Positions 1 to 56,461 of a DNA stretch of 64,000 nt are shown piece after piece; position 1 is the stretch's first letter, and each line of letters begins with the position of its first letter. The stretch spans positions 310,001-374,000 of the forward strand of contig SCSM01000011.1 of assembly GCA_004322215.1 (NCBI GenBank), in the 5' to 3' direction. Origin of the DNA: Bacteroidota bacterium. GTDB lineage: Bacteria > Bacteroidota > Ignavibacteria > Kapaibacteriales > UBA2268. A program made the translations under genes and the position numbers. The notes beneath the pieces were generated by a model. It was not told where the DNA came from and did no database searches. It saw only the letters and a list, made by a program, of their open reading frames with translations.

Positions 1-1050
1 GGTATTACATTCATAGGGCCATCTGCCGAATCAATTAAAAAGATGGGTAACAAATCCGTTGCAAAAGAAACGATGCGCAATGCCGGAGTTCCTGTTGTAC
101 CCGGAAGCGATGGCGTTGTGGATACTGAAAAAGATGCAAAAAAAATTGCAAACGAAATCGGTTACCCGATTTTATTGAAAGCTGTTGCAGGCGGCGGTGG
201 AAAAGGCATGCGTCTCGTTAATGATGACACCGAACTTGAAAAAGCTTTCTCGATGACAAAATATGAGGCGGAATCAGCTTTTAATAATCCGGATTTATAT
301 ATTGAAAAACTTGTTGCCGGCTCAAGGCATATTGAAATTCAGTTACTCGGAGACAAGCATGGTAATATCATTCATCTCAATGAAAGAGAATGTTCGATTC
401 AGAGAAGGCACCAGAAATTAATCGAGGAGGCACCATCTACAATTGTCACTAATGATTTGAGAAGTTCCATGGGCAATGCTGCAGTTCTTGGAGCAATGGC
501 TGTCAATTATTTTGGCCCGGGAACAATAGAATTTCTCGTTGATAACAATCGCAACTTTTACTTTATGGAAATGAACACAAGAATACAGGTCGAGCATCCT
601 GTAACAGAAGAATCCCTCGATATTGACTTAATTAAAGAACAAATAAAAATAGCGTCAGGAGAGAAACTTTCAATCCAGCCAAGTGAACCGAAGATGCATG
701 CAATAGAGTGCAGAATTAATGCAGAAGACCCCTATAATGATTTCAGGCCTAATCCAGGAACAATCGAAAGTCTGCATTTTCCCGGAGGACATGGAGTAAG
801 AGTGGATTCACATATTTATACAGGATATACGATACCTCCATATTATGATTCACTCGTTGCAAAATTGATTACTTTTGCACCTACGAGAGAAGGAGCAATT
901 GCAAAAATGCAGCTTGCTCTCGATGAATTTGTGATTGAAGGAATAAAAACAACAATTCCTTTCCATCAGAAAATGATGCAGAATCCTGATTTTATAGCTG
1001 GTAATATTGACACAAAATATCTTGAAAGAATTGATTGGAAAACATTATAA
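1..1050 (+). CDS. accC: Biotin carboxylase (acetyl-/acyl-CoA carboxylase subunit), 5' truncated by window edge
   Basis: Frame is open from base 1 (GITFIGPSAESIKKMGNK...); ATP-grasp motifs GGGGKGMR, EMNTRIQVEHPVTE, biotin carboxylase C-terminal domain. Confidence 0.93.
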   Translation, partial: GITFIGPSAESIKKMGNKSVAKETMRNAGVPVVPGSDGVVDTEKDAKKIANEIGYPILLKAVAGGGGKGMRLVNDDTELEKAFSMTKYEAESAFNNPDLYIEKLVAGSRHIEIQLLGDKHGNIIHLNERECSIQRRHQKLIEEAPSTIVTNDLRSSMGNAAVLGAMAVNYFGPGTIEFLVDNNRNFYFMEMNTRIQVEHPVTEESLDIDLIKEQIKIASGEKLSIQPSEPKMHAIECRINAEDPYNDFRPNPGTIESLHFPGGHGVRVDSHIYTGYTIPPYYDSLVAKLITFAPTREGAIAKMQLALDEFVIEGIKTTIPFHQKMMQNPDFIAGNIDTKYLERIDWKTL

Positions 1051-1069
1051 ATTTATTTAGGAGTTTTTT

Positions 1070-1450
1070 ATGAATTTCCCGGAAAATTTAAAGTACACAA
1101 CAGACCATGAATGGTTAAAAGTAGAAGGCAGCAAAGCAATAGTCGGGATTACCGACCATGCACAAGGCGAGCTTGGCGATGTCGTCTATATTGACATTGC
1201 CGAAGATATAACATTTGTTAAAGCAGGAGAATCGTTCGGCACGATTGAAGCTGTTAAAACGGTTGCCGATATGTTAGCACCGGTATCAGGAAAAGTTCTC
1301 GATGTAAACAGGAGCTTAAACGACCATCCCGAAGTAGTTAATAAGGACCCTTATGGTGAGGGATGGATGATTGAAATAGAAATGGCTAATCCGTCTGAAG
1401 TTAATGAACTGCTGGATGTTAAGCAATATAAAGACCTTATTGGTCATTAA
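1070..1450 (+). CDS. gcvH: Glycine cleavage system H protein
   Basis: YTTDHEWLKVEG..., lipoyl-lysine motif GTIEAVKTVADMLAPVSG. Confidence 0.97.
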   Translation: MNFPENLKYTTDHEWLKVEGSKAIVGITDHAQGELGDVVYIDIAEDITFVKAGESFGTIEAVKTVADMLAPVSGKVLDVNRSLNDHPEVVNKDPYGEGWMIEIEMANPSEVNELLDVKQYKDLIGH

Positions 1451-1535
1451 TATCATTACAAGTCATTCTGAATGTAGTGATACTTAATAAATAAATCAAC
1501 CTAATATATACTAAAAGATTCTTTAAGGAGTTTAT

Positions 1536-1574
1536 CCTGAACTTTATTCGGGTTCAGAGTGTCTTTTTTTTTTC
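1536..1574 (+). terminator. Putative rho-independent terminator
   Basis: CTGAAC...GTTCAG stem followed by a run of T. Confidence 0.45.
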
Positions 1575-1706
1575 TAAATTTATCTATCCCAAATTTTCCT
1601 TTTAATCCTAAGTTTTTTTAATTTGCAGACAATAATTGATGTGTGTTTACACTCTATTATTTTAGTTTATTGAAAAGTATTTTATTGAATATATTTTGGT
1701 GAGAAA

Positions 1707-3554
1707 ATGAAAACAAAAGATTACTATTTTATTAAATCGCTGTTAATTTCGATTGTAATTATATTTGTTATTTTACCTCAGAATAAGTTGTTTTCGCAGG
1801 AATGGAATATTTACTATGACAGTCCTCCAAATGTTGCAACTTGCACACCCGGTGTATTGAAACAATCAGAAAAAGATGCTGTATTGGCTAAAGTTAATAA
1901 AATAAGAAGCATCCATGGCTTAAAACCTGTAACTTATGACCCTGCCGGTGATGCAGAGTCACAAGCAGCAACATTAATTATGGTGGCTAACAGCGCCTTA
2001 TCTCATACTCCATCTCCATCCTGGCAATGTTATACACAACTTGGATATAATGGAGCTAGTGCCAGTAATCTTCATCTTTCATGGTATTCAAATACCAGTC
2101 AAATTCCCCAAACCCTGGAAAGCATTTATGGTTGGATGATTGATAAAATAATTATCAATAATAAAGATGATTCAACACTCGGACATCGACGTGCTATTAT
2201 TAATCCTTTTTTAAGTCAAATATCTTTTGGCAGATGCGATGGCCAACCTAAGGTTTCATCACAGTATCCTTATGGGACTTCAATGTCATTGAAATGGATT
2301 GGAAATCTCCAGCAAAATATTACTGATTGGTCGAAGGATTTTGTTGCTGTTCCTTACGAAAATTATCCACCTGAGTTTTTTGATAGAGAATGGTATCTAT
2401 CATTTTCTGCTTTTTATGATAAAGTTAATTGGAGTAATAACGTAAATGTAGAGTATATAAATGCCACTATTGAGATGAAAGATGAAAACCAACAGAATGT
2501 TAGTGTAACGAATATTAAATTTGATGATAACCTAGGTTGGGGTGGAATACAAAATCAATTATGCTGGAAAGCAACTGGTTTACAAGACCATAAAACATAT
2601 AATGTAACAATAAAAAATGTTAATGTTAATGGGACAATGAAATCATATTCGTACTGGTTCAATTTAAACAATAGTACAATGGATAAACCCGATGACCCAG
2701 TATTATTTATGCCGCCTGATGCCGCAACAGATGTGACTACCAATCCTCAGTTACAATGGAATCCATCTCAGAGAGCATATAAATATAGAGTAAGTGTTTC
2801 AAAGGTTCCTACTTTTACAACAACAATCGTTGATGACCCTGATGTAACAGATTATCATTACAGTTTAGCAGGACTGGAGCCATTTACAAAATATTACTGG
2901 AAAGTGGCAGCAAGCAATGAAGGAGGAGAAAGCGGCTGGTCGCCGGTATGGAACTTTACAACATCTGGTGTTGCACCTGATGCTCCGGAACAGGTATTCC
3001 CGGATGCCGGAGAAGTTGTTAAAAACCTCACACCTACATTAATATGGAAATCCTCAGAATATGCTAATTCATATAATCTTCAAATATCTACCCAAAATGA
3101 TTATACTGACAGTATTGTTAATGAACAGGGACTTACAGATACTACTTATACAGTTAAATCCGGTGTGTTTTCTTTTAAGAAAAATTATTATTGGAGGGTA
3201 CAAGCCGTAAATAATATTGGAGCAAGTTCTTGGTCAAGGCGTAGATTAAGAACTGATAGTGCTACAAGTGTTGTTGAAGCTCTGTCTGGTAGTTCAAATT
3301 CTAAAATCAGCAATTATCCAAATCCATTTAATGGCAAAACGAATATTTCATTCAATGTAAAGTCATCGGGTAATGTATTGTTAAAAGTATATAATTCGCT
3401 TGGTATGGAAATTTCAACTCTTGTAGCTCAAAGATTGGATGCAGGAACATATTCAACTGAATTTGACGGTACGATTGTTCCGGAAGGAACATATTTTATT
3501 AAACTCATAAGTGTTTCCGGCATTGAAACCGGAAAGATGACTCTAATAAGATGA
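1707..3554 (+). CDS. CAP/SCP-domain secreted protein with fibronectin-III-like domains and T9SS type A C-terminal sorting signal
   Basis: N-terminal signal, CAP-like region (KVNKIRSIHGLKPVTYDP...GHRRAIINP), two Fn3-like segments, C-terminal NYPNPFNGKTNISF...GTYFIKL. Confidence 0.85.
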   Translation: MKTKDYYFIKSLLISIVIIFVILPQNKLFSQEWNIYYDSPPNVATCTPGVLKQSEKDAVLAKVNKIRSIHGLKPVTYDPAGDAESQAATLIMVANSALSHTPSPSWQCYTQLGYNGASASNLHLSWYSNTSQIPQTLESIYGWMIDKIIINNKDDSTLGHRRAIINPFLSQISFGRCDGQPKVSSQYPYGTSMSLKWIGNLQQNITDWSKDFVAVPYENYPPEFFDREWYLSFSAFYDKVNWSNNVNVEYINATIEMKDENQQNVSVTNIKFDDNLGWGGIQNQLCWKATGLQDHKTYNVTIKNVNVNGTMKSYSYWFNLNNSTMDKPDDPVLFMPPDAATDVTTNPQLQWNPSQRAYKYRVSVSKVPTFTTTIVDDPDVTDYHYSLAGLEPFTKYYWKVAASNEGGESGWSPVWNFTTSGVAPDAPEQVFPDAGEVVKNLTPTLIWKSSEYANSYNLQISTQNDYTDSIVNEQGLTDTTYTVKSGVFSFKKNYYWRVQAVNNIGASSWSRRRLRTDSATSVVEALSGSSNSKISNYPNPFNGKTNISFNVKSSGNVLLKVYNSLGMEISTLVAQRLDAGTYSTEFDGTIVPEGTYFIKLISVSGIETGKMTLIR

Positions 3555-3564
3555 TTCAAAGTTC

Positions 3565-3593
3565 AATCCCCTCTTTTTAGAGGGGATTTTTTT
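3565..3593 (+). terminator. Rho-independent terminator
   Basis: 10-bp perfect stem AATCCCCTCT-TTTT-AGAGGGGATT plus T tract. Confidence 0.85.
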
Positions 3594-3610
3594 AATAAAC
3601 AAATAAATTC

Positions 3611-4258
3611 ATGGATATTTTTAATAGTATATCTGACATTAGAAGGGATTATACAAAAGGGAGCTTCAGCGAAAAAACAGCTAAAGAAAATCCTTTTGAA
3701 CAATTCAAATTGTGGTTCGATGAAATGTTAAAAATAGATATGCTCGAACCGACTGCTTTTATTTTATCTACTTCAACAAAAGGCGGAAAGCCGTCTTCCA
3801 GGGTATTGCTTTTGAAACAATACGATGATACAGGTTTTGTTTTCTATACAAATTATGACAGCAGGAAGGGAAAAGAAATAGATGAAAATCCTTATGGAGC
3901 AATGCTCTTTTTCTGGGATAAATTAGAACGGCAAGTCAGAATAGAAGGCAGGATTGAAAAAATTTCTTCTGAAGATTCGGATAAATACTTTCAAACAAGA
4001 CCGTACACAAGCCGCTTAGGCACATGGGCTTCTGAACAAAGCTCACCATTATCAAGTAGATTCAAGTTAATTAGAAAAGTTGCCCAATTTATGGCTAAAT
4101 ATCCGTTGAATGTACCTTTGCCTCCCAACTGGGGCGGTTACAAATTATTACCTGATGTATTTGAATTCTGGCAAGGACGTGAAAACCGGCTACATGACAG
4201 ACTTCAATATAATAAAAATGAAGAAGGTAAATGGGGGATATCGAGGTTGTATCCCTGA
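3611..4258 (+). CDS. pdxH: Pyridoxamine 5'-phosphate oxidase
   Basis: 215 aa; DYTKGSFSE, PSSRVLLLKQYDDTGFVFYTNYDSRKGKE, FWQGRENRLHDRLQY. Confidence 0.97.
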   Translation: MDIFNSISDIRRDYTKGSFSEKTAKENPFEQFKLWFDEMLKIDMLEPTAFILSTSTKGGKPSSRVLLLKQYDDTGFVFYTNYDSRKGKEIDENPYGAMLFFWDKLERQVRIEGRIEKISSEDSDKYFQTRPYTSRLGTWASEQSSPLSSRFKLIRKVAQFMAKYPLNVPLPPNWGGYKLLPDVFEFWQGRENRLHDRLQYNKNEEGKWGISRLYP

Positions 4259-4267
4259 GTAAAGAAA

Positions 4268-4304
4268 CTCAATTTTCCCTTTTTTAAAAAAGAGGGAATT
4301 TTCA
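4268..4304. terminator. Putative bidirectional terminator between convergent genes
   Basis: AATTTTCCCTTTTTTAAAAAAGAGGGAATTTT imperfect hairpin between convergent CDSs. Confidence 0.55.
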
Positions 4305-6527
4305 GATAAACGGTTCTTCAAGACGTAACTTTATAGATTCGATTTCACTTTCAAGCAGTTTCTTCCTAAGCAGGATTTCAGATAATTTACTTTCTGAATC
4401 ACTCCTTATATCCTTGTTAGCTCTCATTTTTACCTGCCTCTGATTATTTTCTTCCTCAAGAATTGCAATGTCATCTTTTAATTGCATGAATTCATCCTTT
4501 CTTGTCATTATATTAATTTCCTTAATAAAATATACTAATGTCAGTATCCCGAACAATATTGAAAATGTATATGAAGATATATACAAAACATTGTACAGGT
4601 CCTTGTTCCCTGTATTCAGGTCTTTGAAAAAATCAGGAAAAAAATTAGTTATCAAACCAAGGGCTACAGTCAATCCCAGACAGATTAATCCTGCTGAAAT
4701 GTTGTTTTTCTTTGTGAATACGAGTGTTTCACGCCTCATTTCTATCAATGTATTTTCTGTCTCGAGGAATTCGGTCTGGTCTTTTTCATATTCCTGGCGT
4801 AATAATTTAACACCACTTTCAAGTTCAGTTGATTCATTTTTAATTAATTCGAGTTCGGAAGAAAATTCAGATTTTTTCTTATTTAATTCTTCGGATAATT
4901 TATTCCATGAATCCCTGATAAGCTTTTTCTTCATTTCATACTTTTGCCCGTCAACCACTTTGTTGTATTTATCGAGCTTTTCTGCAATCTCAGGTTTTAA
5001 TGAACTGGTAGTTCTATTTTTAATGAAACAATCCTTGTTATTGAGCAAAAATTCCTTTGCAAGATGAATATCAGATTTAAATGTATCATCGAGTGCAGTT
5101 TCTGTGTCGAATGATTTGAAATATGCAAAACTCCTTATTACATTTAAATCATCGGCAGCAATTTTGTCGAGGATTTCCCCGGTTGATTCATATACATCAG
5201 CTATAACCCTGCATTCATTATAATATTCCGGTTGAAATTCTTTGATATATTCTGTTATAAATTCCCTGATAATCGGAAGAACCATTATCTTGTTTCTTTT
5301 ATTTTCAGATTCAATAGTTAGTGAATTTTTATTTTTAAGAAAATCATAAGCTTTACTAAAATCAGTATCAATGACCTTAAAACATCTCAAACCCTTTTCA
5401 TCAAATTCATTTAAGAAAGAAGCTGCAACAATCCAATCTTTCTGATTTTCAGTCATGCCTTTCATAATAATTGACAGAATCACTTCCAAAATCTTAATTT
5501 TGATTTGTTCTATATCCATATTGTCAAAATATTCGATATAAGATACAATAAGTATAGGGAGTCCTTTAGACAGTTTAATTAATTCATCGGGCTGTTTGAT
5601 TTCTACCATCAGTTCATCCGATAATTCCTGTAAATCGTTATCATTTAAAAGCCCAAGTTCAACTTTATCAATGATTGATTCATATTTATTCCAAATGTTC
5701 GAATACTCTTCTTTTTTAAGATAATCCTCACGTGAAGAAATAATGAATCTTAAATCTATATATTTGGAAATATTTGTGTTTTCTTTTATATATGAAATGT
5801 TATATGAAATAAAATCTGAAAATTTCTTATTGCAGCAATAATCGAGAAGTTCATCAGAAAGCCATTTGATTAATGAATAATCAAATTTCTCGATATTGTC
5901 AAAAGCTATTAATACTTTCTTCGGTTCAGTATCAGAATAATATCTTTCAAAATCATCGCCAATATTTTCACACGGAAAATAATGATTCATAATATCAACA
6001 AGAATTGCCTCCGCTGAAACTTTATACATTTCTGTAATCAGCCGCCTGTCTCCTTTATTCTCCAACAGATTTTCGAGTAAATTTGCATCAATTTTGTTAT
6101 TATCAGGGCGATAAATATCTAAAAGATAATCTGATTCTGATAATAGCGAAGAATTTCTGATTACTTTATCGCATAAATCTTCGTCTCTTGTTTTTAGTAA
6201 CTCAAGAATTTCATTGTATCTTGTAATATTATAATCACATTCTGTGTGTACGAAGGTATTTGCTGGTTCATCTGATGAGATAAAGTTAATAGTTAAAAGT
6301 TGTAGAAATTCAAAAATATTTTTCGGTTTGTCTTCACTGTCGAAGAATAAAATCGAATCGACAACTTTTTTTTCGATTGCCTCATCTAAGAAACGCTTTA
6401 CAAATCTGCTTTTGCCGACTCCAAAAATCCCATTAATAAAATAAATTCGTTTGGATTCCGGGATACCCATTGGTAAAAAAAAACTTTTCCTGATTTTTTC
6501 CTGTTCGATTAAGCGATTAGCAGACAT
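4302..6527 (-). CDS. STAND/AAA-like P-loop NTPase with C-terminal coiled coil and two transmembrane helices
   Basis: Walker A GIFGVGKS, Walker B VLIAFDNIEKFD, sensor-like LRFIISSRED; long Lys/Glu coiled coil; ISAGLICLGLTVALGLI and VLYISSYTFSILFGILTLVYF helices. Confidence 0.7.
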   Translation of the reverse strand: MSANRLIEQEKIRKSFFLPMGIPESKRIYFINGIFGVGKSRFVKRFLDEAIEKKVVDSILFFDSEDKPKNIFEFLQLLTINFISSDEPANTFVHTECDYNITRYNEILELLKTRDEDLCDKVIRNSSLLSESDYLLDIYRPDNNKIDANLLENLLENKGDRRLITEMYKVSAEAILVDIMNHYFPCENIGDDFERYYSDTEPKKVLIAFDNIEKFDYSLIKWLSDELLDYCCNKKFSDFISYNISYIKENTNISKYIDLRFIISSREDYLKKEEYSNIWNKYESIIDKVELGLLNDNDLQELSDELMVEIKQPDELIKLSKGLPILIVSYIEYFDNMDIEQIKIKILEVILSIIMKGMTENQKDWIVAASFLNEFDEKGLRCFKVIDTDFSKAYDFLKNKNSLTIESENKRNKIMVLPIIREFITEYIKEFQPEYYNECRVIADVYESTGEILDKIAADDLNVIRSFAYFKSFDTETALDDTFKSDIHLAKEFLLNNKDCFIKNRTTSSLKPEIAEKLDKYNKVVDGQKYEMKKKLIRDSWNKLSEELNKKKSEFSSELELIKNESTELESGVKLLRQEYEKDQTEFLETENTLIEMRRETLVFTKKNNISAGLICLGLTVALGLITNFFPDFFKDLNTGNKDLYNVLYISSYTFSILFGILTLVYFIKEINIMTRKDEFMQLKDDIAILEEENNQRQVKMRANKDIRSDSESKLSEILLRKKLLESEIESIKLRLEEPFI

Positions 6528-6630
6528 AATACAAATAATTATTTATTTACTGATTAAGCCATACATTGCAAAGATATAATTTATTCACAAGCGATAAAAG
6601 AAATTAACAAATAATCGGTAAAATTTGCAT

Positions 6631-7065
6631 CTATTCGTTTAATTTGAAATAAAGTATCAATTCGGTACCTTCATCAGTGAATTTAAACTCTACCTTATCA
6701 GATATTTTTCTAATTATAAAAATTCCCCTGCCACTCTCTTTTAATAAGTTTTCAGGAAGTAGCGGACTCTCGAGTTTCCCCAAATCAAAACCGCTACCTT
6801 CATCCTTCACGGTAACAATCAGCAGTTTACCATTACATTCAACATGAATGTTTACAAATTTTTTTTCATCAAATTTATTTCCGTGAATTATTGCATTATT
6901 GACAGCTTCCGTAACAGTAATAACGAGATTGTAGTAAAGTTCTTCATTTAAACTAAACATCTCTTTTATTTCCTTTAGCATAGGTTCGACATTCCTAAGC
7001 GATTTCCTGTCGCTCGAAAGTTTTCTTGAAAATGAAATACTTCTACAATCTTTATTATTTGTCAT
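6631..7065 (-). CDS. RsbW-like serine kinase/anti-sigma regulatory ATPase (HATPase_c_2)
   Basis: TEAVNNAIIHGNKFDEKK N-box, DEGSGFDLGKL, GRGIFIIRKISDKVEF. Confidence 0.9.
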   Translation of the reverse strand: MTNNKDCRSISFSRKLSSDRKSLRNVEPMLKEIKEMFSLNEELYYNLVITVTEAVNNAIIHGNKFDEKKFVNIHVECNGKLLIVTVKDEGSGFDLGKLESPLLPENLLKESGRGIFIIRKISDKVEFKFTDEGTELILYFKLNE

Positions 7066-8957
7066 AAAGCTATTTTAGTATTTAAAAAGAAATTCGGGAA
7101 TTTTCTAATTATTGTTTTACCGATAAATTGAAATTCATACCAGCCCTGTAAACTGATAAAAGAATTACCTAATAAATACATTTTAATATCAACCTCAGGT
7201 GCTATCGAATATTGAGCATAACTATAATACCGGCATCCAAACCCTGCATAATAATAATCTGTTATTTTACTTGTCAGCATTATTTTAACAAATTTTTCAA
7301 AATTAATATTTGTTGGCAATTCGGAGAAATTTTTCCTGAATAAAATGCCATATTCTAAAACTTTTAAATTTATATATGATTGCAAACTTAACAATTTAGT
7401 CAGAAATACGGTTATTGAGTCCCTATAACTTACCTGCCTGTTAATATTGCTTCCAATCGAATATGTTGAATCTTCAAAATCATATAAAGTGTAATTCGCA
7501 CTTAAATCAAGTTCAGGATACATTGAAAACAAAGAAGTTTTCCAGCTGAATTTTGGATTAATTCTAATAAATTTGTTCCAGTTATTATTGGCACTTCTTT
7601 TTGCTTTTATGTAAACCATGTGATATAAATAATAATCTGCCTCAATTGAAAAATAAAATGAGTTATCAAACTTATGGAAATATTCACCGCTGATTAATGA
7701 AGTAAATTTATCTCCGTCTGAATTTTCCTTATCACTTGGACTATCAAATTGAAATAATGAAACTGAATATTTTAGCAGGAATCTATCTTTCTTCGTTGGG
7801 TTCCATTCAGTATTAAAATATAAATTTGTTGAGTTGTTATAGAAATCCTTTAGCTTTTCAGACTCCTGCCATTCCAAAAAACCGGCATCACTAATATTAT
7901 AACTTTTCGTTACCAAATTTTTAAAATAACCGGAAAAAAATGAAATACCCATCCCCTGAATAAATTTTTCTGAGACATATTTCATTTCACTTATGAAGTT
8001 AATATTAAATAAATCCGAATTTCGGTTTATACCTGTAATATCATTATTTGAAACATAACCTTTGTAATACTTGTTTATCCAATTTTTAAGCATATTAAAT
8101 TCAAATTTACCTACTAAAAAATCAGTTAAAGAAAAATCGAATTTTATATCGGAATTAAACTTATTATCGAACCATGTCTCTATCGGAATTGTGTTATCAG
8201 ATTTAATACTAAATAATGAAATATAATCTCTTAACAAAAATCCATAATCAATATCAATTTGAATTTTATCGTAATCGCTGAAATTCCTGTAAAGTGAAGT
8301 TTTAAATCCCAGGTCGGCATTTCTTTTATTATTTGACATTCCTACATACTCACTTGTTAATGAAGACTGAATTTTATAATCTTCAACTGATATGTCTCCA
8401 AGATTCCCGTCAAATTTAAATATTGGACCGGATACATTAAATCCCAACTGATTATTTTGCTCGATGCCTGCTTTTAATTCAAAAAATGATTGTGATGATT
8501 CATTATATTTGAATCCTGATGCTAAGTTTATCCTTCCCAATTTATTTAATGAACCATAATTTAAATTATTTTCAACGACTAAACTTATGTTATCAAAAAT
8601 TGGTAATGAGTAATTCATTTTCAATAATTCTACATCTGTTGAGATAAGGTAAGGCATAGTAATATAAATAACAGTGTCTTTTTTTTGTATTGCATCATAA
8701 ACAGTATCTTTTTCAATTTTGAATGTATTGAGCGTGTAACCGTTAAAATTATGAAAAATTGAAAGTTTACCGCCGAATAATCCAAAATCCAAATTAGCAT
8801 TGCTGCTCAAAATAAATGTATTTGCTAGTTTCGATGAATTGAAATTAATTGTATTTATCGGTATTGAATCGCTTACGATTGCAGTACTATCCTGAGATTT
8901 TACCTGCATTAATAATAAAAAAAATATCGATATAAATTTAAATACTATCCTGAACAT
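7062..8957 (-). CDS. Predicted outer-membrane beta-barrel protein of unknown function
   Basis: Signal peptide MFRIVFKFISIFFLLLMQVKSQ followed by alternating amphipathic strands with aromatic ends; 4-nt overlap with the downstream rsbW-like gene. Confidence 0.6.
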   Translation of the reverse strand: MFRIVFKFISIFFLLLMQVKSQDSTAIVSDSIPINTINFNSSKLANTFILSSNANLDFGLFGGKLSIFHNFNGYTLNTFKIEKDTVYDAIQKKDTVIYITMPYLISTDVELLKMNYSLPIFDNISLVVENNLNYGSLNKLGRINLASGFKYNESSQSFFELKAGIEQNNQLGFNVSGPIFKFDGNLGDISVEDYKIQSSLTSEYVGMSNNKRNADLGFKTSLYRNFSDYDKIQIDIDYGFLLRDYISLFSIKSDNTIPIETWFDNKFNSDIKFDFSLTDFLVGKFEFNMLKNWINKYYKGYVSNNDITGINRNSDLFNINFISEMKYVSEKFIQGMGISFFSGYFKNLVTKSYNISDAGFLEWQESEKLKDFYNNSTNLYFNTEWNPTKKDRFLLKYSVSLFQFDSPSDKENSDGDKFTSLISGEYFHKFDNSFYFSIEADYYLYHMVYIKAKRSANNNWNKFIRINPKFSWKTSLFSMYPELDLSANYTLYDFEDSTYSIGSNINRQVSYRDSITVFLTKLLSLQSYINLKVLEYGILFRKNFSELPTNINFEKFVKIMLTSKITDYYYAGFGCRYYSYAQYSIAPEVDIKMYLLGNSFISLQGWYEFQFIGKTIIRKFPNFFLNTKIAL

Positions 8958-47539: not shown

Positions 47540-49648
47540 ATGGAACAGAAAATAAATTATAAACTTGGTATTGATGTAGGTGGAACATTTACAGATTTTA
47601 TTCTTATTTCCGATACAGGAAATACTACAATTCACAAAACATTATCTACACCTGAAGATCCTTCAGTCGGTGTTATTACGGGAATTCAGGACCTTGCCGG
47701 TATGTTAGGAATAAGTCTTGCTCAATTGAGCAACGATATAGAAACAATCGTTCATGGTACAACGGTGGCAACAAATGCACTGCTGACTCTTAAAGGTTCT
47801 AAGACTGCACTTATAACTACTAAAGGATTCCGCGATGCTCTCGAAATGAGGAGAGGGATTAGGGAAGAACAATATAATAATCATTATAGAAACGTTCAGC
47901 CTCTCGTTCCACGTTATCTCCGGCTGACGGTTGATGAAAGAATTGATACAGAAGGAAATATACTTAAGAAAATTGATGAAACTGATTTAGATTCGGTTTA
48001 TGAAAAATTGAAAAATGAAAAAGTTGATGCAATTGCAATTTGTTTTATAAATTCATTCATTAATCATACTCACGAAGAAATTGCATTATCATATTTCAAA
48101 AATAAGTTCCCGGATTGCTTTATAACCGCTTCTGTCGAAGTACTGCCTTCAATCAGGTTCTACGAAAGAGTCAGCACAACTGTTGTTAATGCTTACATAG
48201 GACCAATAGTAGCAAATTACCTCGATAATCTCACATCGAAACTTGCTGAAATCAATTTCAAGGGAAAACTGCTGATTGTTCAATCTAACGGCGGAGTGGT
48301 TACACCTGAGATTGTAAAAAAATCACCTGCTGTTACTGTTCTGTCAGGTCCTGCGGCAGCACCGACAGCAGGAATATTTTATGCTAACCTGCTTGGCAAA
48401 AAGAATTGTATTACCGTTGACATGGGTGGTACAAGCTTCGATGCCAGTCTCGTTGTAGATAATCAGTGTCTTACAAGTACAGAGGGAGAAATTAACAGGT
48501 ATAAAATTGCATTGCCTTCACTTGATATTGTTACGATTGGTGCCGGAGGAGGAAGTATCGGATGGCTCAACAGCGGCGGACTGCTTCAGATGGGTCCACA
48601 GAGTGCGGGCGCCTCGCCGGGTCCCATTTGTTACGATAAAGGCGGTAAACTTCCCGCATGTACAGATGCTAATTTAATCTTAGGGTATTTGAATCCCGAT
48701 TATTTTGCAGGAGGTAAAATCAAATTAAATTTTGTTAAAACGCAAAAATTATTAGAAAAAGAACTTGCCTCAAAACTTGGATTATCTTTGATGGAAACTG
48801 CCGCAGGTATGTACAGAATTATCAACTCGAATATGGCACAAGGAGTCAGGCAGGTTTCAATCGAAAAAGGTCATGACCCGCGCGAGTTCTTGTTTATAGT
48901 TGCAGGCGGAGCCGGTGCTATTCACGCAGGAGAGATTTGCAAGGAACTTGAAATACCGATGTTCATGGTTCCAAATACAGCTTCGATTTTTTGTGCTGCC
49001 GGGATGCTGCTTGGTGATTTGAAGCATGATTATGTCCTTTCATTCCTTTCTTCTTTTTCTAAATTCGCTCAGAATGAATTTCTAAAACTTTACTCTCAGA
49101 TGAGAGACAAAGGCATGAACACTCTCATTTCAGAAGGAATCAAAAAAGAAAATATTGAATACGAGCCCATAATGGACCTCAGATACATAGGTCAGTACCA
49201 CGAAGTACAGCTTAATGTTGACTGGAAAGACATTGAAACCTGCAATCTTGAAAAAATATCCGATGAATTCCATAATGAACATAACCGGTTATACGGATAT
49301 TCTTTGAGAGAAGGAGCTGAAATAGAAATAATTAATATCCGGCTAAGATGTATTGGGAAAATTGAACGACCGAAATTCCTCTCCGAAAGTATTAAAAGTA
49401 TTCCTCTCGAAAAAGCATTTAAAGGAAACAGAAAAGCATTTATACCTGAAACAAATTCAATGAAGGAAGTTCCGGTATATAACGGAGATTTAGCAATCAG
49501 TAATAATAGAATCGAGGGTCCTGCAATTATCGAAAAATCGAATACCTCAATATTCATCAGCGAAAGTTACGATTGCATAGTAGATAAATATTGCTCTTTT
49601 ATTGTTTATAGTAAGAAGGATTTTCCGGAGGGGTATAAATTGTGGTAA
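47540..49648 (+). CDS. hyuA: Hydantoinase/oxoprolinase-type subunit A (HyuA; also acetone/acetophenone carboxylase family)
   Basis: GIDVGGTFTDFILISD, ETIVHGTTVATNALL, VDMGGTSFDASLVVD, GAGGGSIGWLNSGGLLQMGPQSAGASPGPICY. Confidence 0.92.
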   Translation: MEQKINYKLGIDVGGTFTDFILISDTGNTTIHKTLSTPEDPSVGVITGIQDLAGMLGISLAQLSNDIETIVHGTTVATNALLTLKGSKTALITTKGFRDALEMRRGIREEQYNNHYRNVQPLVPRYLRLTVDERIDTEGNILKKIDETDLDSVYEKLKNEKVDAIAICFINSFINHTHEEIALSYFKNKFPDCFITASVEVLPSIRFYERVSTTVVNAYIGPIVANYLDNLTSKLAEINFKGKLLIVQSNGGVVTPEIVKKSPAVTVLSGPAAAPTAGIFYANLLGKKNCITVDMGGTSFDASLVVDNQCLTSTEGEINRYKIALPSLDIVTIGAGGGSIGWLNSGGLLQMGPQSAGASPGPICYDKGGKLPACTDANLILGYLNPDYFAGGKIKLNFVKTQKLLEKELASKLGLSLMETAAGMYRIINSNMAQGVRQVSIEKGHDPREFLFIVAGGAGAIHAGEICKELEIPMFMVPNTASIFCAAGMLLGDLKHDYVLSFLSSFSKFAQNEFLKLYSQMRDKGMNTLISEGIKKENIEYEPIMDLRYIGQYHEVQLNVDWKDIETCNLEKISDEFHNEHNRLYGYSLREGAEIEIINIRLRCIGKIERPKFLSESIKSIPLEKAFKGNRKAFIPETNSMKEVPVYNGDLAISNNRIEGPAIIEKSNTSIFISESYDCIVDKYCSFIVYSKKDFPEGYKLW
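49552..49638. repeat. Direct repeat copy A (3' end of hyuA)
   Basis: 87 bp, first 42 bp identical to 52005-52046, 6 mismatches over the rest by eye. Confidence 0.9.
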
Positions 49649-49660
49649 TTTGGAGTATAT

Positions 49661-50272
49661 ATGAATGATAGACCCAAAGCTTTTTTTAGTTGTTCTTTAC
49701 TTACTGAAGATTTTGCTTTTAATGCAATTATTGAAAGTATCATTGTAAGATATGGTTTTGAAATTAGAGGAGGTATTGGAAGATATCATTTCTCTCCTGA
49801 ACCTATATCTATTCAAATGAAAAAAGAAATGGATATTTCAGAATGCTTAATTGTTGCTGGTGCAGGAAGATATTTTCAAGAAAATATACATACTCATCAG
49901 TTGTCTTTTAGTATGTCTGAAACAATTGTTGCTGAGATAGGTATGGCAATTCAAAAGACCATACCTATTGTAGCTTTTTTAGCACCAAATGTATCACCTG
50001 GGAATTTATTACCAGCAATAACTCAATATATTAATCCAAAATATAATAACAAAATTGGGAAGTATTACTATGATAATGATCAAATTGACAAAACAATTTA
50101 TAATTGTTTTAATATAATCAATGAAAAAAGAAAAGTAGCAAATAAGAAGAATTTAAAAGATGGACTATTAAAATTGGGTGCAGTGTTTGGTGTGATTGGT
50201 GTAGGTTCAATAATATTATCCTTATTTGAAGAAGATGAACCACCAAAAATGAAAAATACAAAGAAAAAATAG
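49661..50272 (+). CDS. TIR/nucleoside-deoxyribosyltransferase-like domain protein with C-terminal TM helix
   Basis: AFFSCSLLTEDFAFNAIIESIIVRYGFEIRG...MSETIVAEIGMAIQKTIPIVAFLAP; C-terminal LLKLGAVFGVIGVGSIILSLF helix. Confidence 0.5.
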   Translation: MNDRPKAFFSCSLLTEDFAFNAIIESIIVRYGFEIRGGIGRYHFSPEPISIQMKKEMDISECLIVAGAGRYFQENIHTHQLSFSMSETIVAEIGMAIQKTIPIVAFLAPNVSPGNLLPAITQYINPKYNNKIGKYYYDNDQIDKTIYNCFNIINEKRKVANKKNLKDGLLKLGAVFGVIGVGSIILSLFEEDEPPKMKNTKKK

Positions 50273-50279
50273 AAATATT

Positions 50280-51698
50280 TTGAATATAAAAAGGAGATTT
50301 CTCATGAAAAAATTCTATGTTCTATTGATGATTTTATTTATGGCAACTTCTTCCTATGTAATTTCTAATGATCTTGATAGTTTAAAGAAAGTGATTGAAA
50401 AAATCAATTTAGATCATGAAAAATTAAAAGATAAAGTTGAAAGTCAGTCAAAAAATATGGAGATACTTTTTTATGTTTTAGTTGGTGTCCTATCTATTGG
50501 TGGTTTGACTTCTTTAGTTGGCTGGTTTAGAAACGAAACTAGAACACAACGAGAGCATAATCTTTCAAAAAACACAATTGATATGGTTAATGAAATTCTT
50601 AATTTAACAGTTGGAGCAAATAAAAAAGCATTAGAATCAAAAAGCAATTGGCTTAATTTAACAAGTGAAGATTTGACAAGAAGAGCATCTGAATTAATTG
50701 ATAAATCCAAGGATAAAAATGTTTTGATTAATAATAATGAAAGTATATATGAAATTAGTAAAATATCTGAGGAAATACCAGTTTTAAAAAATAATATAAA
50801 AGTATGGGGAGAGAATATTGAAATATCACTAAAGTGTTTATTTATTAGAGCATTAGATTTACACATAAATCAAAAATTCGATGCCGCAATAGAAACATGG
50901 AAAGAAGTTTATGAAAGCAAACATTCTGATATAGATGATTTAAAAAAAGAAGCTCATTATTGGACAGGATGTGAGTATAATAATTTAGGCGAGTATGAAA
51001 AAGCTTTAGAACAATTTGATTTTGCTTTGGAAATTGTAAAAAATGCAAAAGATATAGAAAAATTTGAAATAGAAAGAATTATTTTAGAAACTAGATTTTT
51101 TAATAAAGATAACGATAACGAAGAAAATATTTTAGAAGGTTTTAGTGAATTATATGAAAAAATAAGTAAATCAAATGAACATGGTATAGATGATCTCAAA
51201 TCAAAAATTGCCAATAGTTATGCAAATATTTATTTTTCTAAAGGATTTAATTTACAAAAAAAAGCAAAAGATGATGAAGCAAGAAAATATTATGAAGAAA
51301 CAAAGAAATATTATCAAATAGGTTCTAATAATTATTTTTCTAAATTAAATTTAGCTGAAACAAATTATAGGTTAGGTAAAGAAAATATTAAAGAAGATTT
51401 TATTGATATAAAAAATAGAGCAAAAATTAGGTATCTTAATAAAAAAGAACCAAGAACTAAAGTTTCAGAATGCGCAATTAATTTTATATTCGCCCTACGT
51501 CTTCAAGAAAATATTCAAGAAATTGAAAAGAAGTATAAAGATGTAATAAGGGATATTTATTCTGTAAATGATAGATTAACAATTTATTCACCAATAAGAA
51601 AATTAAATGTTGATAGAGGAGAATTCGAAAATGATATTGATTTCCTTTTGAAAGAACATAATGATAATAAGGTAATTTTAAAAAACGTAAGAACCTAA
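50280..51698 (+). CDS. Membrane-anchored TPR-repeat protein
   Basis: N-terminal hydrophobic segments (KFYVLLMILFMATSSYVIS, LFYVLVGVLSIGGLTSLVGWF) and TPR-like repeats (AHYWTGCEYNNLGEYEKALEQFDFALEI). Confidence 0.65.
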   Translation: MNIKRRFLMKKFYVLLMILFMATSSYVISNDLDSLKKVIEKINLDHEKLKDKVESQSKNMEILFYVLVGVLSIGGLTSLVGWFRNETRTQREHNLSKNTIDMVNEILNLTVGANKKALESKSNWLNLTSEDLTRRASELIDKSKDKNVLINNNESIYEISKISEEIPVLKNNIKVWGENIEISLKCLFIRALDLHINQKFDAAIETWKEVYESKHSDIDDLKKEAHYWTGCEYNNLGEYEKALEQFDFALEIVKNAKDIEKFEIERIILETRFFNKDNDNEENILEGFSELYEKISKSNEHGIDDLKSKIANSYANIYFSKGFNLQKKAKDDEARKYYEETKKYYQIGSNNYFSKLNLAETNYRLGKENIKEDFIDIKNRAKIRYLNKKEPRTKVSECAINFIFALRLQENIQEIEKKYKDVIRDIYSVNDRLTIYSPIRKLNVDRGEFENDIDFLLKEHNDNKVILKNVRT

Positions 51699-51739
51699 TG
51701 AAAAAGAATGGATTAATTTTATGGAAAGGGAAAAATAAT

Positions 51740-51976
51740 ATGGATGAATGTCTAATCTGTGGTTCCAAACATTTTACAGAGCAGAAAGTAAATAAAGTCT
51801 ATGAAATTGACGGCAGCCCTGTCATTGTTCAAAATATTCCTGCTCATGTATGCAATAATTGCGGAGAAAAGTATTTCGAAGGCGAAACTCATGATAAAAT
51901 CATGAAAATGGTCTATAGTAATGAGATAGCAACCGAAACAGTTGAAGCGAAATCTTATGAGTTTATGGTGGAATGA
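51740..51976 (+). CDS. YgiT/MqsA-type zinc-finger (antitoxin-like) protein
   Basis: MDECLICGSKHFTEQKVNKVYEIDGSPVIVQNIPAHVCNNCGEKYF; CxxC...CxxC; ATG at 51740 preferred over 51698. Confidence 0.85.
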   Translation: MDECLICGSKHFTEQKVNKVYEIDGSPVIVQNIPAHVCNNCGEKYFEGETHDKIMKMVYSNEIATETVEAKSYEFMVE

Positions 51977-52004
51977 AAAACTTTAATCCTTCAATTTTTA
52001 CCAA

Positions 52005-52091
52005 ATTCATCAGCGAAAGTTACGATTGCATAGTAGATAAATATTGTTCTTTAATAGTTTATAATAAAAAGGCTTTTCCGGAGGGGTATAA
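52005..52091. repeat. Direct repeat copy B (orphan fragment of hyuA 3' end)
   Basis: Translates FISESYDCIVDKYCSLIVYNKKAFPEGYKV*, versus FISESYDCIVDKYCSFIVYSKKDFPEGYKLW* in hyuA. Confidence 0.9.
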
Positions 52092-52180: not shown

Positions 52181-52819
52181 ATGAGTATTAAGAAACCACA
52201 TTTTCAAATTGATAAAGAGTATGAGACTCTTAGAACTGAATTATTTAAAGTTCGGCAGTACATTTTCGAAAGACCAATAATAATAATTACTGGAAGCATT
52301 GCATTAATTCAATTAATTGAAAAACAATATTCAATCTACTTACCAATTATAATAATTGGTTTGTTGTTGTTTAATTTATGGTTTACAGTAAATAGATGGC
52401 GAAGCATGGCAAGAATTCTTGCCTATATTCAAATTGTACTTGAGAACGAAGATAGTAACTGGTATGGTTGGGAGACATCTCTTAGATATTTTAGAAAATG
52501 GATAAAACATAAAAATATTAATGTTAATAAAATTATTATTAATAAGGAAAAAGATATTGGTTACGCAGGTTATTTCCCGATTATTTATTTTGTACATATA
52601 TTTTTAACAATTTGTGTATCAATTGTACTTTTTATCTATACATTATTGAATGATGAGATGTTAAATTTGATAGTTTTAATAATTACTTTAATATGCTTGT
52701 TTATTTTTTTAATTTATGCATTTAACGTTAGTCCTAAAAAGATAAGACCCAACGTTGAGAGAAATAGGATAGTTTGGATAGAAGTGTTTGAACATTGGGA
52801 AGAGTTAGATACAAATTAA
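52181..52819 (+). CDS. Multi-pass membrane protein of unknown function
   Basis: Four hydrophobic segments, AT-rich ORF. Confidence 0.55.
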   Translation: MSIKKPHFQIDKEYETLRTELFKVRQYIFERPIIIITGSIALIQLIEKQYSIYLPIIIIGLLLFNLWFTVNRWRSMARILAYIQIVLENEDSNWYGWETSLRYFRKWIKHKNINVNKIIINKEKDIGYAGYFPIIYFVHIFLTICVSIVLFIYTLLNDEMLNLIVLIITLICLFIFLIYAFNVSPKKIRPNVERNRIVWIEVFEHWEELDTN

Positions 52820-52952: not shown

Positions 52953-54623
52953 ATGAAACAAATTGATAAAATATTAGTATCCATTTTTCAGCGGTCGTTT
53001 AAATCAATTACCGATGAAATGAGTATCTCGCTAACGAAAACCACAAGGTCACCTATTTTGTGCGAAGCGAAGGATTTTGTTACGGGTTTGTATGATGCAA
53101 AAGGTCAAATGCTCGAGCAAACAGAAAACCTCCCAATCCTTTCTTTTTCGTTAGGTCCTGTGTGTAAAGTTATAATTGACTTTTTCGGTGAGGAGATTTA
53201 TCCGGGTGATGTGATTATTCATAATGATGTTTTTTCGATGGGAAATCAAAATAATGACGTTGCAATCTTCAAACCGATTTTTTATAATGATGCACTGATT
53301 GGATGGTCTGCCGCTAAGGGACATCAGGCTGATATTGGAGGTGCAGTGCAGGGAGGATACAATCCTAATGCAACTGAAGTATGGGAAGAAGCTTTGAGAA
53401 TACCTGCTGTAAAATTATTTGAAAAAGGCAAGCTAAGGAAAGATGTCTGGAATCTGATTTTTGCAAACATCAGATTGCAGATGGTTCAGGAAGATATAAT
53501 GGCACAAATCGGTGCTTGCACGCTTGGAGAAAGAAGATTGCAGGCTTTGGTGGAAAAGTATGGCATTGATGTTTTTGAATCACATAAACTGGAGCTATTC
53601 CGTTCCACTGAAAAAATGATGAAAGCTGAAATCAGGGGAATACCGAATGGTATCTATGAAGGCGACAGCAGGGTTTATTATGACGGAAAGCATCCCGGTA
53701 CAAAATTCAATATTCACTCAAAAATAACAGTCGAAGATGAATCCATTACTTTTGATTTTTCAGATTCGTCACCTCAGACAGACGGATTTGTGAACGGAAC
53801 TTATACATCAACTTGTTCGGCGATTACATTAACTTTTTTGCAAACAGTAAATCCGAACATACCGCATAATGAGGGAATGATAAAACCGCTCAAGTATATC
53901 GTACCTGTTAGTACCATTTTGAATGCAGCATATCCAAAGGCAACTACATTTGGGAATCATTTATGCCCTCAGGTTGCCGACTCGATTTTCAAAGCATTGT
54001 CTTCCGCAATTCCTGAGCGAGTAACAGCAGGATGGAATCATTTGCTTTGTTCATTGTTTACGGGATTACATCCGCGCACAGGAAGGAAATATGTAGATAT
54101 TTGCTTTATGGGACTAAAGGGAGGTTCAGGTGCTTTGGAAGGTGATGATGGATATGACCATATTGGAATGATAGACGCCTCTGGAGGTGTGCTTGACCAG
54201 GATTATGAAATGTATGAGAGGCAAACGCCTCATTTAATTTTAAAGCATGAATATATGGCAGATTCTGCAGGAGCAGGCAAATGGAGAGGAGGATTAGGTG
54301 TTGAAACTGTAATTAAAATTGGGGCTGATGATACGAAAATGGTTGTCTTCGGCGATGGTGATGTTGAGCCGTCTTACGGTTTAAACGGGGGAAAGCAGGG
54401 AACATTAAATAAAATTACAATAACCTATCCTGATGGAAAAGAAGTAACACCAATGAGCAAAGACCTTGTTAACGATATACCAAAAGGGACAATATACAGA
54501 CAAGTTGCAGGAGGCGGAGGTGGCTACGGAAATCCAAAAGAAAGAGACAGGGATAAGGTTTTGAATGATGTGAAGAATGAGGTTGTTTCTAATGACAAAG
54601 CAAAAGAAGAATATTATTATTAA
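52953..54623 (+). CDS. hyuB: Hydantoinase-type subunit B (HyuB)
   Basis: IFQRSFKSITDEMSISLTKTTRSPILCEAKDFVTGLYD, GDVIIHNDVFSMGNQNNDVAIFKP, AGGGGGYGNPKERD. Confidence 0.92.
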   Translation: MKQIDKILVSIFQRSFKSITDEMSISLTKTTRSPILCEAKDFVTGLYDAKGQMLEQTENLPILSFSLGPVCKVIIDFFGEEIYPGDVIIHNDVFSMGNQNNDVAIFKPIFYNDALIGWSAAKGHQADIGGAVQGGYNPNATEVWEEALRIPAVKLFEKGKLRKDVWNLIFANIRLQMVQEDIMAQIGACTLGERRLQALVEKYGIDVFESHKLELFRSTEKMMKAEIRGIPNGIYEGDSRVYYDGKHPGTKFNIHSKITVEDESITFDFSDSSPQTDGFVNGTYTSTCSAITLTFLQTVNPNIPHNEGMIKPLKYIVPVSTILNAAYPKATTFGNHLCPQVADSIFKALSSAIPERVTAGWNHLLCSLFTGLHPRTGRKYVDICFMGLKGGSGALEGDDGYDHIGMIDASGGVLDQDYEMYERQTPHLILKHEYMADSAGAGKWRGGLGVETVIKIGADDTKMVVFGDGDVEPSYGLNGGKQGTLNKITITYPDGKEVTPMSKDLVNDIPKGTIYRQVAGGGGGYGNPKERDRDKVLNDVKNEVVSNDKAKEEYYY

Positions 54624-54700
54624 TTTTGAGTTTTGAGAATAAAACTGAATAATAAATATGGATTATCTAATAAAATGGTACTTAAATAAGTTTAATTAAT

Positions 54701-54892
54701 ATGAAAAAAATGCAAAAAATAGAATTAATTGTTGAAGAGATAAAGCTGTTACAAGAAGAACAGATAGATATTGTTCATACTTTTATCTCTAAATTTTGTT
54801 CTTCTGATGCGGATCCTATTTATGCTGATAAAGATAAGTATGATGGGGATATCCCTGAAGATATAGCATTAAACCATGATTCATATTTATAG
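54701..54892 (+). CDS. Small acidic protein, possible antitoxin-like partner of the adjacent nucleotidyltransferase
   Basis: 63 aa ORF 12 bp upstream of the MNT gene. Confidence 0.4.
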   Translation: MKKMQKIELIVEEIKLLQEEQIDIVHTFISKFCSSDADPIYADKDKYDGDIPEDIALNHDSYL

Positions 54893-54904
54893 GGAATAGT
54901 ATAT

Positions 54905-55222
54905 ATGGCTAAGATCCCAGCTCAAATAATTGAAATTATTAAAAAATTTATAGAAAGGGCTTTGGAAGATAATATTCATATATCTCAGGCTGTTCTTTTC
55001 GGAAGTTATGCCAGAGGAACTAACAACGAATGGAGCGATATTGATGTTGCAGTTGTATCAGATGATTTTGAAGGTATCAGGATATTTGATAATAAAAAAA
55101 TCAGGAAAGCGAAATTAAAAACAAGTATTGACCTTGAAACTCATCCGTACAGGCCTGAGGATTTTACATCAGATAATCCTTTCGTACAAGAAATTTTGGA
55201 GTATGGGATAAGAATTGTTTAG
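54905..55222 (+). CDS. MNT-type nucleotidyltransferase-domain protein
   Basis: AVLFGSYARGTNNEWSDIDVAVVSDDF (GSxARGxxxxxSDIDxxV). Confidence 0.9.
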   Translation: MAKIPAQIIEIIKKFIERALEDNIHISQAVLFGSYARGTNNEWSDIDVAVVSDDFEGIRIFDNKKIRKAKLKTSIDLETHPYRPEDFTSDNPFVQEILEYGIRIV

Positions 55223-55330: not shown

Positions 55331-56461
55331 ATGGATTATCAACTAAATGAAACTCAGCTCTTGATCCAGCAAACTTTTAAAAGTTTTGTTGATGCCCGTG
55401 TAAAACCGCAGGCTGAGCAAATTGATGTTAATAAAGAGTTTCCGCATGAATTGTTTAAAGCTGTGGGTGAACTTGGATTTTATGGGATGAGGTATCCGGT
55501 TGAATCAGGAGGAAGCGGGCTCGATATTCTTTCCTACTGTCTCGCTGTTACCGAACTTGCAAGAGGTTCTTTGTCGCTTGCAGCTGCTTGTTCAATGCAG
55601 TCTCTAATGGCTACATATTTCTTATACAGGTTCGGGGACGATGAGATTAAAACTAATTATTTTTCTCCTGCTTTGAAAGGAGAGAAAATCGGTACAATTT
55701 GCATGACTGAACCCAATGCTGGAAGTGATTTGAATAATATAACAACCACAGCCAAAGTAATTGATGATGGATTTATTTTAAACGGTCAGAAGATTTGGAT
55801 AACATCGGCTACTGTTGCAGATTTTATGACAGTGCTGTCAAGAACAGACAACCACGAAAAACTCTCTATCTTTTTTGTACCGTCTAACTTTGAAGGAGTG
55901 CATATAGGTAAAAGCATTGATAAGCTCGGAGTGCGAGGTTCTGTTACAAGTGAAGTCTCATTCGATAATGTCAAAATTCCAATAAATTATTTGCTTGGTA
56001 AAATTGGTGAAGGTACTAATTGCCTATTTGAAATACTTGCTGAAATAAGAATAATGACTGCTGCACTGGCTTATGGAGTATCTATCGCTGCTTATGAAGA
56101 TTCCCTGGAATATGCGAAAACACGAGTACAGTTCGGAAAGCCAATCGGTAAATTTCAGTTGATACAGGAAAAATTTGCAGATATGGCTGTCAAACTTGAA
56201 ACTACTAAGCAAATGCTTTACCATGCAGCAAGGCTTTGCGACCTTAACTTGCCCCGGCAAAAGGAAGCCGCAATCGTGAAATTATATGCATCGGAATGTG
56301 CAAATTCAATCTGCGATGAAGCATCGAGAGTTATGGCATCTTACGGCTATGCAATGGAATATCCCATGCAGAGATACCTTCGAGATGCAAGGTTCACTCT
56401 TATTGGGGGCGGCACAAACGAAATTCTGAAAATAAATATTGCCAAAGAACTCGGACTCTAA
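55331..56461 (+). CDS. Acyl-CoA dehydrogenase
   Basis: ICMTEPNAGSDLNNITTTAK, GQKIWITSATVADF, YLRDARFTLIGGGTNEILKINIAKELG. Confidence 0.96.
   Translation: MDYQLNETQLLIQQTFKSFVDARVKPQAEQIDVNKEFPHELFKAVGELGFYGMRYPVESGGSGLDILSYCLAVTELARGSLSLAAACSMQSLMATYFLYRFGDDEIKTNYFSPALKGEKIGTICMTEPNAGSDLNNITTTAKVIDDGFILNGQKIWITSATVADFMTVLSRTDNHEKLSIFFVPSNFEGVHIGKSIDKLGVRGSVTSEVSFDNVKIPINYLLGKIGEGTNCLFEILAEIRIMTAALAYGVSIAAYEDSLEYAKTRVQFGKPIGKFQLIQEKFADMAVKLETTKQMLYHAARLCDLNLPRQKEAAIVKLYASECANSICDEASRVMASYGYAMEYPMQRYLRDARFTLIGGGTNEILKINIAKELGL

Follow-up and report, generated by a model that had tools for sequence, protein, structure and literature searches.

The 64,000-nt stretch of DNA analysed here (the window) contains no tRNA gene. 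It carries an intact gene of the hydantoinase/oxoprolinase A type, hyuA, whose 3' end occurs a second time downstream, with three open reading frames between the copies (Table 1). The gene is 92-93% identical to its counterparts in G001 and G003, two genomes of the same genus. An 87-bp direct repeat of the hyuA 3' end had been claimed in a preliminary description of this DNA, and the comparison bears this out: the two copies agree at 81 of 87 positions (93%), contain no indel, lie at an offset of 2453 and are identical over their first 42 bp. They are the only copies in the 4.2-Mb genome (G000; 47 contigs; E = 1.5e-31). Under looser alignment the repeat reaches about 105-118 bp, the added part being mostly AT-rich similarity beyond the stop codon. 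Copy 2 has an abrupt edge, begins 28 bp past the stop codon of the preceding zinc finger gene and translates as FISESYDCIVDKYCSLIVYNKKAFPEGYKV followed by its own stop codon, so that its earlier reading as an orphan HyuA C terminus is visible in the translation. The cargo between the copies is entered from an intact hyuA through that gene's own 3' end.

Table 1. Features of the hyuA-hyuB region (positions in the window)
Feature	Position	Strand	Evidence or remark
hyuA, hydantoinase/oxoprolinase A type, intact anchor gene	47540..49648	+	Pfam Hydantoinase_A E 8e-91, Hydant_A_N, Hydant_A_C
Repeat copy 1, hyuA 3' end	49552..49638	+	sequence comparison
203-aa TIR/deoxyribosyltransferase-like protein, C-terminal TM segment, putative fold	49661..50272	+	ORF; homologue in G018
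Membrane TPR protein, 464 aa	50304..51698	+	TPR_1 E 1e-4 (weak)
Solitary YgiT/MqsA-type zinc finger, antitoxin-like	51698..51976	+	TIGR03831 E 1e-11, Pfam MqsA_antitoxin E 2e-7
Repeat copy 2, orphan hyuA tail, own stop	52005..52091	+	sequence comparison
212-aa membrane protein, separate fourth ORF between copy 2 and hyuB	52181..52819	+	ORF; unrelated to known families
hyuB	52953..54623	+	Hydantoinase_B E 2e-142
Possible 10-bp remnant of duplicated acyl-CoA dehydrogenase start, ATGGATTATC	54658..54667	+	otherwise only at 55331; suggestive only
63-aa ORF and nucleotidyltransferase (MNT-like), cargo of next gap	54701..55222	+	NTP_transf_2 E 3e-13

Cargo genes and their possible role

The three cargo ORFs are present as first described. 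The 203-aa protein matched no Pfam, NCBIfam or PADLOC family and nothing in viral, phage or plasmid collections. A profile search matches its residues 88-114 weakly to a nucleoside 2-deoxyribosyltransferase (PDB profile, E 1.2), which agrees with the fold first suggested from the sequence and is no proof of a TIR domain; E92 would be a candidate catalytic residue. An AlphaFold2 model built from a two-sequence input (pLDDT 39) was unusable. Its sole homologue (65-66% identity) among related genomes, sampled in draws of 60 and 396, lies in G018, a genome of another genus, where it adjoins a Schlafen/AlbA-HATPase protein, a GmrSD-type protein and a tyrosine recombinase; together these form an island at G018:C59 (L021) 2551-7470.

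The membrane TPR protein keeps its earlier assignment through a weak domain match, and neither it nor the 212-aa membrane protein has a full-length homologue among 119 genomes of relatives. The product of the third ORF has the CxxC zinc-finger domain of the YgiT/MqsA type, recognized by both the NCBIfam and the Pfam model, and its true start is probably at 51740. No toxin ORF lies between the TPR gene and the zinc finger or after the latter, in line with the lack of an obvious partner noted before, and the solitary protein may be a leftover antitoxin.

A defence function for the cargo appears plausible. The neighbourhood of the G018 homologue, and a parallel SIR2-TPR-HicB set in G003, suggest that the TIR-like/TPR pair may serve in defence as a NADase-type system. 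A PADLOC search gave no meaningful match for the cargo itself, and defence models were matched solely by the genes adjoining its homologue in G018.

Gene ends duplicated around inserts

The old gene order is hyuA-hyuB-acyl-CoA dehydrogenase. At most outgroup loci with both genes, the gap between hyuA and hyuB measures roughly 15-170 bp (215 bp in G009 and about 500 bp in a few), so that the supposed usual adjacency of the two genes holds and the outgroups supply empty sites. Each of the three hyuA-bearing genomes in the genus holds a different cargo in this gap, namely a PemK module in G001, FmdE/DUF364/membrane genes in G003 and the present set in G000, and the gap is a hotspot within this genus. 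Among the relatives examined, none has these genes at hyuA with the repeat absent. With hyuA intact, a second 3' end displaced and the outgroup sites empty, the claim of a cassette acquired at the hyuA 3' end is supported. A scar at this gene is also present in G018, where a 57-bp duplicate of the genome's own hyuA tail (55/57 identical) encloses an 89-aa ORF, which has no Pfam match and is presumably antitoxin-like.

Scars of the same kind occur at the ends of other genes. A glycosyltransferase tail in G002 is followed by a solitary YgiT gene and then by an 85-bp duplicate of the tail, and in G001 an intact NlpC/P60 gene is separated by HicBA from a 330-bp duplicate of its end. In G001 and G003 it is the 5' end of the acyl-CoA dehydrogenase gene that is duplicated upstream, with a PIN toxin between the copies, which in G001 are identical at 59 of 60 positions. 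The window has a second cargo slot at 54658-55222, between hyuB and the acyl-CoA dehydrogenase gene and occupied by the MNT-like gene; the 10-bp sequence listed in Table 1 sits where G001 and G003 have the dehydrogenase-start duplicate. Overall, the duplicated ends measure 57 to 330 bp, belong to a different host gene at each locus, may be 3' or 5', have no recombinase close by, and in each case match the gene of their own genome. The hyuA locus is one instance of a recurrent, testable scar.

Within its own genome the scar is infrequent. A survey of 1.53 Mb revealed few cases, namely hyuA, HicAB at G000:C20:178448-179256 and a pair read from its translation as PIN/RHH at G000:C20:549397-550419, the latter two each lying between intergenic direct repeats of about 100 bp. 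Most other repeats in the survey proved to be paralogous C-terminal domains, CRISPR-like repeats or tandem repeats. Two small contigs, C8 (L087 150-1753) and C10 (L108 12920-19649), carry CRISPR-like 30-bp repeats, CTTTTAATCGAACTATGGTAGAATTGAAAT. A candidate at G013:C515 (L173 1385-4132) was rejected as a scar of this kind, since it consists of Rhs-type core ends that recur ahead of alternative, orphan tips, with toxin-antitoxin (TA) genes between.

An association with TA genes is suggested by counts of bracketing direct repeats, which were found at 9/30 HicA loci and 0/30 loci of a metabolic control family (Fisher p = 0.002), and at 6/21 YgiT loci compared with 0/275 control positions on the same contigs; these counts include some repeats of other kinds (Rhs tips and intergenic arrays), as does the pooled YgiT figure (arrays). 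A second HicA sample, drawn mostly from congeners, gave 2/17 bracketed, and because of this, and because some brackets are of other repeat kinds, repeat-bracketed TA genes must be regarded as a minority pattern. Searches of the open-access literature yielded no account of TA modules flanked by duplicates of host gene ends.

The relatives are largely metagenome assemblies, and an assembly might have joined the tails of two strains. This we consider very improbable: a misjoin at shared sequence collapses repeats and would not make copies 2.4 kb apart, and a scar of the same kind is present in other assemblies.

How the inserts may have arisen

The preliminary description likened the repeat to the att sites of integrative elements. 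On such an account the insert would be a satellite or degenerate element with the hyuA 3' end as its att site, and the recombinase would act in trans or have since been lost. Phages do insert at the 3' ends of protein genes, as at icd in E. coli, and the geometry is alike in that the gene tail is restored intact and the native tail, here with its own stop codon, is displaced downstream; the tyrosine recombinase next to the G018 homologue of the 203-aa protein also favours it. Unlike the icd case, however, no phage genes accompany the insert, and the apparent lack of an integrase is confirmed by the ten proteins encoded between 45.6 and 55.2 kb, none of which has an integrase or transposase domain. 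No constant att core is common to the insertions, the repeats being ends of different genes with different lengths, 5' ends included; the same site holds different cargo in G018 and G000; and the cargo is not found in phage, plasmid or viral collections. The likeness to att sites is therefore not supported, and an integrative element is an unlikely explanation, weaker than the long target duplication considered below.

The NlpC locus is the most informative. In G000 the order NlpC-126-aa gene-purB is free of any insert, and in G003 (C23, L251, 3900-8100) NlpC is followed directly by an orphan HicB and then by SIR2-like and TPR genes before the 126-aa gene. This SIR2-like/TPR/orphan HicB set parallels the TIR-like/TPR/YgiT set of the window. 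G001 has both arrangements joined, NlpC-HicB as in G003 and the insert-free form as in G000, such that NlpC is followed by HicBA and by a second NlpC tail that leads into the native genes downstream. Identity between the two tails in G001 is 84%, and that of either one to the congeners' single tails is 75-81%. Between the coding parts of the two there are 15 synonymous codon changes and 0 nonsynonymous ones. An unselected orphan fragment is not expected to gain synonymous changes only, and the two tails are therefore best read, from their sequences, as species-level alleles of two lineages that have been united, and not as att sites or a decayed target duplication.

The most economical account covering all these scars is additive, homology-anchored illegitimate recombination with DNA of relatives (HFIR-like, after homology-facilitated illegitimate recombination). 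By analogy with these loci, the hyuA insert may have arisen by the same route, a reading in which our confidence is about even. In essence, a fragment of a related strain's DNA, containing that strain's hyuA 3' end and the cargo, would pair with the resident hyuA. Its first end would be resolved by homologous recombination within hyuA and its second by illegitimate joining inside the resident hyuA tail. The product would be an intact hybrid hyuA followed by the cargo and by the resident tail, which, as copy 2, would be orphaned yet remain joined to the native DNA downstream. The process would require no recombinase, and insertions at gene ends would survive because the gene remains whole. The DNA was presumably taken up by transformation, and ComEC is present in the genome. 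At hyuA one boundary of the insert lies in sequence homologous to the recipient, as orthologues demonstrate for NlpC, and the two copies at the NlpC locus of G001 read as donor and recipient alleles. Counting against this route, no mosaic breakpoint is visible within hyuA in 100-bp bins compared with G001 and G003, the right junctions have no clear pattern of microhomology, and none of the related genomes in the draws of 60 and 396 has hyuA leading into the same cargo, as a donor would.

A different origin is conceivable for the repeat itself, in which the cargo was captured at a staggered break, or through template switching in the course of repair, with 50-120 bp of the host gene end copied to either side of it and drift in copy 2 thereafter. 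Such a long target duplication is a serious rival at hyuA because the two copies (93%) are closer to each other than either is to any congener, with no donor lineage visible, and because the synonymous bias of their differences, four of six at third codon positions, is not significant (p = 0.10). The agreement of duplicates with their own genome's gene also speaks for it, as do the near-identical copies and abrupt edges of G018 hyuA and the G001 acyl-CoA dehydrogenase gene; for these two loci and for the hyuA of the window it is possible. All six hyuA differences, however, fall inside 27 bp (clustering p about 0.009), unlike even drift, and the mechanism does not predict the purely synonymous divergence of the two NlpC alleles. 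Ku is absent from G000, which also led us to reject Ku-based end joining. Taken together, we regard long target duplication as fairly unlikely to account for the hyuA insert.

Homology-anchored recombination has known relatives. An HFIR-type process has been proposed to account for effector 3' ends displaced at T6SS loci of Vibrio, for the orphan immunity arrays found there and for orphan Rhs ends (PMC5361080). There, too, a conserved gene provides the anchor for incoming DNA, its resident 3' end is orphaned downstream and repeats of the process build arrays, but the anchors are polymorphic effectors, whereas here they are housekeeping genes (hyuA, NlpC/P60, glycosyltransferase and acyl-CoA dehydrogenase) and the cargo consists of TA or defence-like genes. 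Integrase-free hotspots (PMC5635113) resemble the present one in lying between core genes, with fast cargo turnover and no mobile element, but the double homologous recombination invoked for them leaves no duplicated gene end. TA cassettes of superintegrons, to which a stabilising role is ascribed, likewise place TA genes between repeats and may prevent loss (PMC2654758), although those repeats are attC sites and not host gene ends. TA genes in the cargo may similarly fix an otherwise unstable repeat-bounded insert by addiction.

Where TA and defence genes enter chromosomes in the absence of a mobile element, recombination at the core genes on either side is usually a statistical inference, whereas displaced gene tails mark individual, datable events and also indicate the donor lineage. 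If true, the TA bias among bracketed loci would allow a direct test of the idea that addiction protects inserts from deletion through their flanking repeats. More speculatively, and with considerable doubt on our part, recombinase-free additive recombination at core-gene ends could be a standing route for TA and defence genes in this family, with inserts held by addiction and orphan tails forming a log of events that includes arrays. An array of this type occupies G018:C51 (L175) 1-3400. There a peptidase-like gene at 3375 has its 5' region repeated in four to five copies of 58-137 bp, with TA cassettes in between (DUF4258-like with YgiT, DUF2283-like and HEPN-MNT-like), an arrangement apparently built up through repeated insertion at one site.
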